Shown: one piece after another, positions 42,746-46,165 of the stretch | Position numbering within the stretch: the stretch's first letter is position 1 | Layout of the letters: every line of letters starts with the position of its first letter | Assembly (NCBI RefSeq): GCF_000688335.1 | Contig: NZ_JHZX01000001.1 | Location: 2,356,001 to 2,420,000 of the forward strand | DNA: 64,000 nucleotides | DNA from: Sediminibacter sp. Hel_I_10 | GTDB taxonomy: Bacteria > Bacteroidota > Bacteroidia > Flavobacteriales > Flavobacteriaceae | Reading direction: 5' to 3' | The notes under the pieces: model-generated | Seen by the model: only the letters and a program-made list of their open reading frames with translations | Told to the model about the DNA's origin: nothing | The model's database searches: none | Translations under genes and position numbers: made by a program

Positions 42746-45700
42746 ATGAACTACGATTTCAATACCATTGAAAAAAACTGGCAAGCGTATTGGGCTAAAA
42801 ACCAAACCTTCAAGGCCTCTAACTCTAGTGATAAACCTAAATATTATGTACTAGACATGTTTCCTTATCCTAGTGGTGCGGGCTTGCACGTTGGCCACCC
42901 TTTAGGTTATATCGCTAGTGATATTTATGCCAGATACAAACGTCATAAAGGTTTTAATGTATTGCATCCGCAAGGGTATGATAGCTTTGGGTTGCCTGCC
43001 GAGCAGTATGCCATTCAAACAGGGCAGCACCCCGCAATCACTACCGAAACCAATATCAAGACCTATCGCCGTCAATTGGATAAAATAGGATTTTCATTCG
43101 ATTGGAGTAGGGAAGTGCGCACCAGTGATCCTAATTATTATAAGTGGACACAATGGATTTTCATTCAATTATTCGAGTCTTGGTACAATCATGATACCGA
43201 CAAGGCAGAATCTATAGACAGCTTGGTCTTTAAGTTTTCTGCGGAAGGAAACGCTACTGTCAATGCCGCTTGTGATGATGGTATTGCTATGTTTTCTGCG
43301 GAAGATTGGAACGGTTTTTCTTCGGAAGAACAACAAGACATCCTTCTAAAGTATCGATTGACCTATCTCGCCGAGACTGAAGTCAATTGGTGCCCAGCAT
43401 TAGGAACCGTATTGGCGAATGATGAAATTGTAAACGGCGTGTCAGAACGTGGTGGACATCCCGTGATTCGAAAAAAAATGACCCAATGGAGCATGCGCAT
43501 TTCTGCCTATGCAGAACGTTTACTCCAAGGCTTGGAAGTTATTGACTGGACCGATGCCTTAAAGGAAAGTCAGCGCAACTGGATCGGGAAATCGGTGGGA
43601 GCTAGTGTCAGATTCCCCATCCTATCCTTCCCCAATGTGGAAGCGAAAGCAGGTTCTAAAAAGTTAGCCGGATATATGACTGGAGGAAATAACTCACACC
43701 TCTTGCTGGAAAGAGCAAAAGCAATGCGAGCCAATCCAACTGAGGCAGAGGCTATTTTATGGGAAAATTTGAGAGGTAAGAAAGTAAATGCGAAATTCAG
43801 ACAACAACACCTTATTGATGATTTTATTGTTGATTTTGTTTGTCTTGATAAAAAACTCATCGTTGAGGTTGATGGAAAGATTCACGATAGCCAAATAGAT
43901 GCAGATGCTAAAAGAACTGAGCGCCTAGAACTTGACAACTATAAAGTGATCAGATTTACTAATGAGGAGGTCATAGGGAATATAGATGGTGTTTTAAATA
44001 AAATCACAACCGAACTATCGCAAAGAATATCAGTAAAGAGTGAGCAAGTCCTTCCCTTAGGGAAGGATTTAGGATGGGATATAGAGGTATTTACCACCCG
44101 CCCCGATACCATCTTTGGTGTTAGTTTTATGACCTTGGCGCCAGAGCATGATTTGGTATCTAAAATAACAACCCCTGAACAAAAAGCAAGTGTCGAAGCC
44201 TATATTGAAGCCACTGCAAAACGCAGCGAACGCGAACGTATGGCCGATGTAAAAACAATTTCAGGCGCATTTACCGGTGCGTACGCTGAACATCCGTTTA
44301 CCAAAGAACCAATTCCTGTTTGGATTGGTGATTACGTACTTGCTGGTTACGGCACGGGAGCAGTAATGTCTGTGCCTTGTGGCGACCAACGTGATTATGA
44401 TTTTGCCAAACATTTCGAAATTCCTATTCCTAACATCTTTGAAGGTGTAGACATTTCCGAAGAGGCTTATGGCTCTAAAGATAATGTGGTGATTACCGGT
44501 AGTGATTTTCTTAATGGTTTGACTTATAAAAAAGCCGTAAAGCGCGCTATTTTCGAACTTGAAAAATTAGGTCAGGGCGAAGGAAAAACCAACTACCGAT
44601 TGAGAGATGCGGTGTTTTCGCGCCAACGCTATTGGGGAGAACCATTTCCTGTGTATTACGTTAACGATAAACCGCAAATGATTGATAAGGCACATTTGCC
44701 CATTCGTTTGCCAGAAGTTGAAAAATACCTTCCAACCGAAACAGGCGAGCCACCTTTAGGTCGCGCAGATGTTTGGGCTTGGTGTACCGAGACAAATGCT
44801 GTAGTCTCTAATGATAAGATTAATGATACCACCGTGTTTCCTTTGGAATTGAACACCATGCCGGGTTGGGCGGGGAGTTCTTGGTATTTCTTTAGATATA
44901 TGGAAGAGCAGGCCAATCGTGGAGAGGATTTTTCGACAGAACCGGCATTGAATTATTGGGAAAACGTAGACTTATATATTGGCGGAAGCGAACATGCTAC
45001 AGGTCACTTATTGTACGCTCGTTTTTGGACCAAGTTCTTAAAAGATCGTGGCTTTGTAAACGTTGAAGAACCCTTTAAAAAGTTGATCAATCAGGGGATG
45101 ATTTTGGGGACGAGTGCTTTTGTTTATCGAGTTGTATTATTTGGTGATTTCCCTTTAATTCATACAGATTTCGTAGTCTCGAAAGGAGTTTCTGATTTAA
45201 TTCTTTCTGATTCAGAATCATCATTAAATATTCGTGAATTAATTACAGACCATTATAAATCTCAAATTCAAAAAGATAAATTTCCTAAATTATTTGCTAT
45301 TGGTGTTTCTGAGGATACTCATGTGAAAGTTGAATATGTCAATTCTTCTGATGAATTAGATATTGAAAGTCTAAGAAATGATCATGAATTCGGAAAAGAC
45401 TATAAGAATTCAGTTTTCATAGGTGAGAGTGGAGAAATAATTAAAAAAGATAATGATGTTTATAAAGTAGGCCGCGAAGTCGAAAAAATGTCCAAATCCA
45501 AATACAACGTCGTCAACCCAGATGCTATTTGCGAGCAGTATGGTGCAGACAGTTTACGACTCTACGAAATGTTTCTTGGGCCATTAGAGCAAGCCAAACC
45601 TTGGAATACGGCTGGTATTACAGGTGTGCATGGTTTTCTAAAAAAACTATGGAAACTCTATATCGATGATAATGGGTTAAAAGCTACAGATGCCGAGCCT

Positions 45701-46165
45701 TCTAAAGACGCACTCAAGACCTTGCATAAAACCATTAAAAAGGTAGAAGAAGATATTGAGAACTTTTCATTTAATACAACGGTATCTACATTTATGATTG
45801 CGGTTAATGAATTGACGGCGCAAAAATGTGAAAGCAAAGCTATATTAGAACCCTTATTAGTTTTGCTATCGCCTTACGCACCGCACATTTCCGAAGAGTT
45901 ATGGAGTAAATTTGGGCATACAGAGAGTATTTCAACAGCGCCTTTTCCAAAGTTTGAAGCCCAACATTTGGTAGAGAGCAGTAAAGCATATCCTATTTCG
46001 TTTAATGGTAAAACACGTTTTACCCTAGAGCTTCCATTAGATTTAAGTAAAGAGGAGATCGAAAAAACAGTTATGGCCAATGAAAAAACCCAAGCACAAC
46101 TCGATGGACGTGTACCAAAAAAGGTCATCGTCGTCCCCGGGAAAATTGTCAATATTGTGGGATAA
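42746..46165 (+). CDS. leuS: Leucyl-tRNA synthetase with an in-frame DUF559 nuclease-like insertion
   Basis: LeuRS charges tRNA-Leu and edits mischarged tRNA. The class I signatures are present: PYPSGAGLHVGH (~41-52) and EKMSKSKYN (KMSKS at 914-918). The frame is unbroken, but 1139 residues is about 200 above the usual bacteroidetal length. Residues ~291-445 do not belong to LeuRS. They separate KSVGASVRF from IEVFTTRPDTIFG at the start of the CP1 editing domain and contain a DUF559 domain (~320-415). The editing motif FTTRPDTIFG and the later GTGAVMSVPCGDQRDYDF are intact. Residues ~789-910, before KMSKS, are also longer and more diverged than I expect. LeuRS is certain, and the insertion is read directly. 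Confidence 0.96.
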   Translation: MNYDFNTIEKNWQAYWAKNQTFKASNSSDKPKYYVLDMFPYPSGAGLHVGHPLGYIASDIYARYKRHKGFNVLHPQGYDSFGLPAEQYAIQTGQHPAITTETNIKTYRRQLDKIGFSFDWSREVRTSDPNYYKWTQWIFIQLFESWYNHDTDKAESIDSLVFKFSAEGNATVNAACDDGIAMFSAEDWNGFSSEEQQDILLKYRLTYLAETEVNWCPALGTVLANDEIVNGVSERGGHPVIRKKMTQWSMRISAYAERLLQGLEVIDWTDALKESQRNWIGKSVGASVRFPILSFPNVEAKAGSKKLAGYMTGGNNSHLLLERAKAMRANPTEAEAILWENLRGKKVNAKFRQQHLIDDFIVDFVCLDKKLIVEVDGKIHDSQIDADAKRTERLELDNYKVIRFTNEEVIGNIDGVLNKITTELSQRISVKSEQVLPLGKDLGWDIEVFTTRPDTIFGVSFMTLAPEHDLVSKITTPEQKASVEAYIEATAKRSERERMADVKTISGAFTGAYAEHPFTKEPIPVWIGDYVLAGYGTGAVMSVPCGDQRDYDFAKHFEIPIPNIFEGVDISEEAYGSKDNVVITGSDFLNGLTYKKAVKRAIFELEKLGQGEGKTNYRLRDAVFSRQRYWGEPFPVYYVNDKPQMIDKAHLPIRLPEVEKYLPTETGEPPLGRADVWAWCTETNAVVSNDKINDTTVFPLELNTMPGWAGSSWYFFRYMEEQANRGEDFSTEPALNYWENVDLYIGGSEHATGHLLYARFWTKFLKDRGFVNVEEPFKKLINQGMILGTSAFVYRVVLFGDFPLIHTDFVVSKGVSDLILSDSESSLNIRELITDHYKSQIQKDKFPKLFAIGVSEDTHVKVEYVNSSDELDIESLRNDHEFGKDYKNSVFIGESGEIIKKDNDVYKVGREVEKMSKSKYNVVNPDAICEQYGADSLRLYEMFLGPLEQAKPWNTAGITGVHGFLKKLWKLYIDDNGLKATDAEPSKDALKTLHKTIKKVEEDIENFSFNTTVSTFMIAVNELTAQKCESKAILEPLLVLLSPYAPHISEELWSKFGHTESISTAPFPKFEAQHLVESSKAYPISFNGKTRFTLELPLDLSKEEIEKTVMANEKTQAQLDGRVPKKVIVVPGKIVNIVG
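43616..43643. repeat. Left inverted repeat of the DUF559 insertion
   Basis: The block begins CCCATCCTATCCTTCCCC. Its reverse complement matches the block at 44051-44078 with about 22 of 27 positions identical and two small gaps. It also contains a short hairpin (CTTCC ... GGAAG, 43627-43643). In leuS it encodes PILSFPNVE. Confidence 0.75.
44051..44078. repeat. Right inverted repeat of the DUF559 insertion
   Basis: This block ends GGAAGGATTTAGGATGGG and pairs with 43616-43643. It overlaps a perfect hairpin of its own, TCCTTCCC-TTA-GGGAAGGA (44049-44067, 8-bp stem). It encodes LPLGKDLGW in leuS. Confidence 0.75.

Follow-up and report, generated by a model that had tools for sequence, protein, structure and literature searches.

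An in-frame DUF559 nuclease-like insertion with palindromic ends in leuS of Sediminibacter sp. Hel_I_10, and its counterparts in other genes of the Bacteroidota

For a selfish nuclease in an essential gene to be harmless, an intron or an intein is usually held to be required. Other insertions are read as part of the gene that they enter. RPEs and intragenic REPs (GTAG and CGTC repeats) are palindromes found in frame within protein genes, including DNA-repair and tRNA-synthetase genes, and sometimes at roughly the same site in related species (PMC3733652, PMC10969869). In the parts of these articles available to us, the inserts are short (~150 bp or some 20-82 residues), a nuclease domain is not mentioned, and the CGTC repeats are said to be without a dedicated transposase (the latter in PMC3733652). 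The insertion described here lies in the leucyl-tRNA synthetase gene (leuS) of Sediminibacter sp. Hel_I_10, within a stretch of 64,000 nucleotides (the window), and shares with RPEs and intragenic REPs a palindromic repeat that is in frame inside a gene. However, it consists of two palindromes around a full endonuclease domain, in an insert of 465 bp, and its hairpin (CTTCCCNNNGGGAAG) is not multi-copy in the window genome, where the one copy is that of the leuS insert, as against 8 copies in the congeneric genome G219.

The RAYT/REPtron arrangement comprises a gene between palindromes together with dispersed solo palindromes (PMC3733652). The DUF559 elements reported below likewise show a gene flanked by palindromes plus dispersed lone palindromes; but while RAYTs are HUH tyrosine transposases, the protein of the leuS insert is a DUF559 domain with a predicted Vsr-type fold. 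Regarding homing enzymes, those of the EDxHD type are described as having extended DNA-binding regions, and I-Bth0305I is listed among the homing enzymes of group I introns (PMC3943268). The nearest unspliced homing insertion is ShiLan (PMC11855218), which sits in a DNA methylase of phages, is compatible with the reading frame and patchy in its distribution, and encodes a homing-type nuclease; splicing was not detected for it. The ShiLan nuclease is of the HNH type, is encoded in another frame than its host and occurs in phage methylases; DUF559 elements, in contrast, have the nuclease in the host frame, many cellular host genes and palindromic ends. In the open-licence PMC literature, DUF559 was not found together with leucyl-tRNA synthetase, no DUF559 article (judged by title) dealt with in-gene DUF559 elements, and no description of a class of palindrome-bracketed in-frame nuclease elements was found.

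The leuS insertion and its nuclease-like domain

In window coordinates, the gene and its insertion are laid out as follows:

42746..46165, + strand: leuS, leucyl-tRNA synthetase with in-frame insertion; single ATG-started frame, 1139 aa
43616..44080, + strand: inserted element, residues 291-445, delimited by comparison with empty congeners
43616..43643, + strand: left end; outer tail CCCATCCTA, then decayed hairpin TCCTTCCCCAATGTGGAAG
43670..43708, + strand: N-terminal extension GYMTGGNNSHLLL, residues 309-321
43709..44017, + strand: DUF559 nuclease-like domain, residues 322-424 (Pfam PF04480 and fold match)
43865..43885, + strand: E-x-D-G-x-x-H motif, residues 374-380, putative catalytic site
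44050..44078, + strand: right end; hairpin CCTTCCCTTAGGGAAGG, then outer tail ATTTAGGATGGG
44075..44551, + strand: LeuRS editing (CP1) domain picking up again past the insert (Pfam)

Despite the insert, leuS scores 879 bits against the bacterial LeuRS family of NCBIfam (TIGR00396; cut-off, 548 bits). By comparison with empty congeners (VTFNVNxHDEV-IEVFTTRPDT), 155 residues stand in place of about 8 turn residues at the start of the editing domain; the Pfam match of this domain (PF13603) begins at residue 444 and profile position 21 and, in consequence, the insert splits the editing domain. Residues 322-424 match DUF559 with 109.4 bits (curated cut-off, 20.6) and an E-value of 1e-31, which bears out the sequence-only reading of leuS as one unbroken frame of 1139 residues with DUF559-bearing extra residues 291-445.

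The element resembles inteins in being in frame, nuclease-bearing, patchy and found at the same site in several genomes, so that a non-canonical intein, or an intron which is spliced out, has to be weighed. Nevertheless, at E 0.001 Pfam assigns no protein-splicing (Hint) family to any part of the 1139 residues, and no group I/II intron was matched in Rfam up to E 1 on either strand of 43400-44300, the insert being an open frame; thus, neither search found anything in favour of splicing. Besides, the ends encode variable linkers, and in MetH a nuclease-free relic remains in frame (see below). Intein and intron readings were consequently rejected, given the absent splicing domain and RNA family, and we consider them highly improbable. 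The 4.1 Mb one-contig window genome contains one full-length LeuRS match (three others reach just 23-28 bits) and, hence, the occupied gene must provide LeuRS activity, unless it is spliced. We infer that the insert is left unspliced and that a full-length LeuRS is present in the cell.

A structure model of the full-length LeuRS was too poor for use (pLDDT 57); that of the DUF559 domain reached a pLDDT of 85.3. By its fold, the domain matches 3hrl, a putative endonuclease-like protein (Z 16.4), I-Bth0305I (3r3p_A; Z 13.2, TM 0.66/0.79; profile match, E 2e-7) and Vsr (1cw0_A; Z 10.1). The profile search agrees with the fold matches to 3hrl and I-Bth0305I. The Vsr/restriction-endonuclease-like fold given for DUF559 in the sequence-only reading agrees with the predicted structure. 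On the model, the best characterised structural match of the domain is the homing endonuclease I-Bth0305I, from which the leuS nuclease differs in being fused in the host frame, with no splicing partner seen. No DNA-binding module was evident beyond the domain of 120 residues, in contrast to the extended DNA-binding regions of known EDxHD homing enzymes. As to the motif, 20 aligned LeuRS copies all have E374, D376 and H380, and the same columns do not vary in 59 aligned copies. In nine intact LeuRS pairs, pN/pS of the domain was 0.18-0.27 (host part, 0.07-0.19), and in the degenerate LeuRS pair described below it was 0.43; by these sequence comparisons, the DUF559 domain is under purifying selection. 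A phage origin was considered and rejected: 28 relatives were found in viral contigs, none of them with more than 45% identity.

Palindromic ends and dispersed copies

An inverted repeat of ~22 matches in 27 positions had been claimed for the outer ends of the element. It proved slightly better: when the left flank is locally aligned with the reverse-complemented right flank, 43616-43643 and 44051-44078 share 25 matches, with 1 mismatch and 4 gap columns (score 30). Control pairs of the same spacing, drawn from sequence surrounding in-gene DUF559 copies, reached that score in 4/5669 cases. On the right, the arm forms a hairpin of its own (44050-44066, CCTTCCC TTA GGGAAGG) with the outer tail after it, and the left arm is the same hairpin plus tail copied inverted, its inner half being decayed.

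The right-end unit is also dispersed among relatives. Away from leuS, it is found in apparently intergenic DNA of G219 (L418, L421) and G157 (L430) and, with 2 mismatches, in G125 (L424), where it lies at the 5' end of a frame with what we take to be a MurD-like start. In the genome G181, two copies are at the LeuRS insert, a third, belonging to a nuclease-free palindrome pair, is near KMSKS of that LeuRS, and a fourth is at another locus. In one of the searches the pattern was one loop position too long, so that true copies show up there with 2 mismatches and its counts are lower bounds.

For the hairpin test, which was picked once the inverted-repeat result was known, a strong hairpin was one above the 95% level of control windows. 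Strong hairpins were found on both sides in 7/24 in-gene copies of the family, in 40/74 and 28/42 copies of two wider in-gene sets (the in-gene sets overlap by 3 to 6 loci), and in 22/64 other DUF559 copies of the family, mostly standalone; if the two sides were independent, ~0.25% would be expected. Neither of the two degenerate copies has any strong hairpin (0/2). Hairpin ends are, then, frequent and not universal at the 95% threshold. A simple inverted-repeat score exceeds 99% of controls in 6/24 family in-gene copies, 35/74 and 28/42 copies of the wider sets, and 28/64 other family copies; its weakness in the family in-gene copies is due to left and right ends often differing in palindrome subtype. 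Repeats confined to the leuS copy had been named as an outcome that would leave mobility unsupported; similar palindromes were found at other DUF559 copies in other genes. By eye, no target-site duplication could be defined at the LeuRS, RecG and MetH junctions. In two HsdR genes (L195, L196), further solo palindrome words (KPSPKSSPNGRG, KPTPKSSPTGRG) lie in frame upstream of the DUF559 insert.

Occurrence in LeuRS and in other host genes

In 23 congeneric genomes, the LeuRS site, bordered by KSVGASVTF on the left and IEVFTTRPDT on the right, can be found in the following states: (i) with the DUF559 insert in 3/23 (window genome, G219 and G208); (ii) as an empty turn, e.g., NVNGHDEV, in 12/23 (one of them, G214, known from match coordinates only); and (iii) with a short, unrelated in-frame insert in 8/23. 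Five of the eight short inserts are clearly palindromic, folding better than shuffled sequences at p 0.03 or less (L097, L105, L110, L111, L115), whereas the folds of the remaining three are no better than shuffles (L100, L104, L106; p 0.28-0.58). MTSEMLKxVQHD-like words are contained in 4/8; the corresponding palindrome, ATGCTGAA-N5-TTCAGCAT, is present in 14/23 genomes with 1-12 copies each, and a reversed control pattern had no match. Elsewhere in the family, the fold of one short insert was borderline (L161, p 0.05) and that of another was not better than shuffles (L160, p 0.26). Since unrelated short inserts and DUF559 are found at the same turn, the LeuRS turn has been hit repeatedly by unrelated in-frame repeats; with short inserts in eight congeners, it is an insertion hotspot. 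Also within the genus, a DUF559 match at G205:C1:2348597-2348926 lies in a 1043-residue frame, about the length of an occupied MetH, and the window genome itself has a weak partial match (L002; G000:C1:1733702-1733830, profile 66-108) in a 161-residue frame. Weak matches such as the latter turn up throughout the family and seem to belong to a small protein of a separate kind.

At the family level, 89/199 genomes have a DUF559 match, and at least 17/199 carry DUF559 in LeuRS (14 intact, L086 in a broken frame, and 2 degenerate), a count taken among most of the strong DUF559 matches, with weak matches and L088 left out. L086 comes from a draft that is 64% complete and entered neither trees nor tests. 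In L088 (G125:C1:236312-236512), DUF559 is matched in part (E 1.5e-13) within a frame of 717 residues, at which tblastn gave no match. The degenerate copies L087 and L089 (G113 and G002) retain a DUF559-derived domain without the ExDGxxH motif and without strong flanking hairpins, a possible case of domestication. Close relatives without residues ~291-445, which the sequence-only reading had proposed to look for, do exist, and carriage of the insert by all relatives through vertical descent, an outcome that it had set against mobility, is not what was found.

This patchiness could, in principle, come from one old insertion per host gene, followed by vertical descent with many losses and no homing, the nuclease being tolerated baggage. 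The LeuRS host tree has 73 rows (16 intact, 2 degenerate, 10 short insert, 45 empty), second loci per genome having been removed, as well as four of the 40 fetched family leuS loci, which were unparsed (L123, L124, L146, L153). On this quick tree, the presence of DUF559 (18 carriers) demands at least 13 changes, which argues against descent from a single insertion; the well-supported branches alone, in its favour, force just 4 DUF559 label changes among labelled rows. Likewise consistent with it, insert and host distances among intact LeuRS copies agree in part (Mantel r 0.47, p 0.005; identities of 44-79% for inserts and 65-86% for hosts), no recent transfer was seen by low dS, the synonymous sites of the insert being about as saturated as those of the host, and RecG, HsdR, HemD and UvrD/RecB-like copies each form one lineage. 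Given the saturated sites and the correlated distances, much of the history of the insert is old and partly vertical. On the other hand, an in-frame insert of 465 bp would be expected to be gained more readily than to be cleanly lost many times over, the catalytic motif is retained in aligned intact copies, and the G208 insert is only 70% identical to that of the window genome, against 86% for the hosts, and has another palindrome type at its left end. All in all, we deem purely vertical descent unlikely.

LeuRS is one host among many. In a phylum-wide search, 161/395 genomes matched DUF559 at E 1e-15. Host domains were scanned in 36 representative proteins and five flank pieces (Pfam) and in seven proteins (NCBIfam), and 12 host families have host domains on both sides of DUF559: (i) LeuRS (the editing-domain turn and a second site in the catalytic domain), IleRS (TIGR00392 above cut-off in L269 and L277), MetH (two sites) and RecG; (ii) RecB/UvrD-like helicases, fused isobutyryl-CoA mutase (IcmF), PurL and a DegT aminotransferase; and (iii) four restriction-modification families, i.e., HsdR, HsdM, Eco57I-type IIG and type ISP enzymes. 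Three further proteins, an N6/N4 methylase, an MmeI-like enzyme and an M23-peptidase protein, are probably in-frame hosts as well: a host domain adjoins DUF559 at one end, and at the other a long open frame continues. They are counted apart because one host flank is without a Pfam match (the right one in L210 and L212, the left one in L179). In 7 further families, DUF559 is at a terminus: C-terminal in HisD, FGase and a GATase_5 protein; N-terminal of the open frame in HemD, HisF, coproporphyrinogen oxidase and a PALP enzyme. The N-terminal cases may possibly represent read-through from an upstream gene, with no fused product. A ValRS-like copy (L289) is truncated by the end of its contig.

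Among the matches listed, the 80 loci in named genomes that were best by similarity, which are no random sample, contain 81 DUF559 frames; by blastp, 44 are LeuRS-like (including L289), 12 RecG, 11 UvrD-like, 1 PurL and 1 MetH, and 12 have no label, IleRS and DegT being among those. Records titled Bdellovibrio, Algicola, Limnohabitans and Marithrix also carry such domains (L283, L287, L290, L280), three of them in Bacteroidota-like genes, possibly from misbinned drafts.

Empty sites were found for other hosts too. The RecG insert is absent in 15/15 chosen relatives, in which the matching blocks, up to residue 418 and from 565-566, are 3-6 bases apart (sequence shown for 10/15 loci, the other five known from match coordinates), and the MetH insert is absent in 14/14 relatives with MetH (15 chosen). 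In the MetH of G096, one of these 14, the DUF559 site holds a nuclease-free, in-frame palindrome (AGCCCCCCAAAGCGCTAAAAGCGCTGGGGGAGCT; L388, L402) that folds as one hairpin. In LeuRS, RecG and MetH alike, the element is present at a fixed site in some genomes while relatives have the empty allele, as with homing endonuclease elements.

In a tree of 91 family domains, the LeuRS, MetH, RecG and HisD copies make up one branch apart from the rest (99/93); RecG and MetH each form one branch, and LeuRS is not resolved as a single branch. The pattern of the GYMTGGNNSHLLL extension recurs in inserts of these same hosts (LeuRS, MetH, RecG, HisD). A tree of 124 domains in 24 host groups, built from few columns and with many weak forks, has 27 label changes, with a minimum of 23 and a shuffled mean of 69. 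Colonisation of new genes is rare and persistence at a site long, as expected of homing lineages and also of old vertical ones.

These trees also bear on REP-like transposition, i.e., that the palindrome is the moving unit, set in motion by the nuclease or some other enzyme, and that a flanked nuclease gene travels along in a composite, IS-like manner, being in frame by chance. Standalone DUF559 genes lying between hairpins (22/64 on both sides), nuclease-free in-frame palindromes in MetH and near KMSKS in the G181 LeuRS, and in-frame palindromes of another family at the same LeuRS turn would all agree with it. Nevertheless, the LeuRS, MetH, RecG and HisD branch is well supported apart from the standalone copies of the family, having mostly one lineage per site is a better fit to site-specific homing, and target duplication was not seen. 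We regard REP-like transposition as a serious possibility to which we give somewhat less than an even chance.

Recruitment of the domain for a function, e.g., as a nuclease used by LeuRS or by restriction enzymes against phage or stress, would account for purifying selection and for the several restriction-modification hosts. However, the hosts are functionally unrelated (LeuRS, MetH, PurL, RecG, an aminotransferase), presence is patchy and often flanked by palindromes, and two LeuRS copies keep the domain despite loss of the motif. In consequence, recruitment seems to us improbable.

Proposed mode of spread and significance

The best explanation, and one that we hold to be probable, is a palindrome-ended, homing-like, in-frame nuclease element that is tolerated unspliced in surface loops. 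The anatomy of the element, its empty sites, its many hosts, the end-repeats dispersed in relatives, purifying selection and the homing-endonuclease fold, all of them seen in the present data, argue for it. Speaking against it are the single palindrome copy in the window genome, the absence of a target-site duplication that could be defined by eye, the differing palindrome subtypes of left and right ends, the saturated synonymous sites, the correlated insert and host distances, the few changes forced by well-supported branches of the host tree, and the apparent want of a DNA-binding module. Its resemblance to RPEs and to homing endonucleases notwithstanding, the element is neither of the two. 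We are quite confident of one part of this explanation, that the insert is an in-frame mobile element kept in the protein; the other part, homing as the route of spread, is close to an even call and falls slightly on the doubtful side. The idea of a mobile, translation-compatible element, different from both RPEs and inteins, had been put forward from the window alone, and it now gains support from the patchiness and the variety of hosts.

According to this explanation, the leuS insert would be one copy from a family of elements that carry a Vsr/EDxHD-type endonuclease domain (DUF559) as cargo and have a hairpin-plus-tail repeat at either end, the left one inverted relative to the right. The elements would enter loops of host proteins, keep the frame and be translated within the host protein, with no splicing at the RNA or protein level; their ends, read in frame, would provide linkers rich in Pro, Gly, Ser and Lys, and entry into loops together with these flexible linkers may explain the tolerance of the host. 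The nuclease, presumably active, would most likely be a homing enzyme that cuts the allele lacking the element, or a palindrome there, after which repair from the occupied allele would copy the element into the cut one. Such homing would produce a single lineage for each host site, a patchy distribution and, now and then, entry into a new gene. Copies would later lose the catalytic motif and the palindromes, and might persist as an inert domain.

If so, a nuclease domain appears to be retained unspliced in a mature synthetase and in many other enzymes, and the in-frame inserts constitute a natural record of protein loops that tolerate an insertion of 150 residues. The degenerate copies in two LeuRS suggest a path by which a parasite may turn into a permanent protein domain, and the DUF559 element is a concrete candidate for the mobiliser of palindromic repeats that enter coding genes. 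The system is directly testable in cultivable marine flavobacteria.

More tentatively, these elements may represent a widespread autonomous class in the Bacteroidota, in which a small homing-type nuclease within REP-like palindromes, translation-compatible throughout, parasitises essential genes without splicing. Lone RPE-like intragenic palindromes would then be non-autonomous derivatives, and a parallel class, with GIY-YIG nucleases and other palindromes, would supply the missing mobilising enzyme for intragenic REPs. We find this generalisation plausible, albeit short of probable.

The pairing of GIY-YIG genes and palindromes in the genus is a lead only. Of 52 ATGCTGAA palindromes, 5 have a GIY-YIG gene at a distance of up to 500 bp, in two clusters, versus 0.1 expected (52 of 59 palindromes and 8 of 14 genomes entered this test), and a first flank scan found some known palindrome word in the flanks of 4/30 GIY-YIG loci. 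In L350 (G045 C13:232000) and L332 (G210 C39:83094), GIY-YIG genes adjoin ATGCTGAA palindromes that are also present inside the LeuRS of those species. One HsdR (L199) has both GIY-YIG (residues 251-316) and DUF559 (443-547) in frame. Finally, by eye, standalone GIY-YIG genes were seen between inverted-order hairpins such as TTCCTGCGAAGGCAGGAATCTC at L321, L323, L325 and L329.
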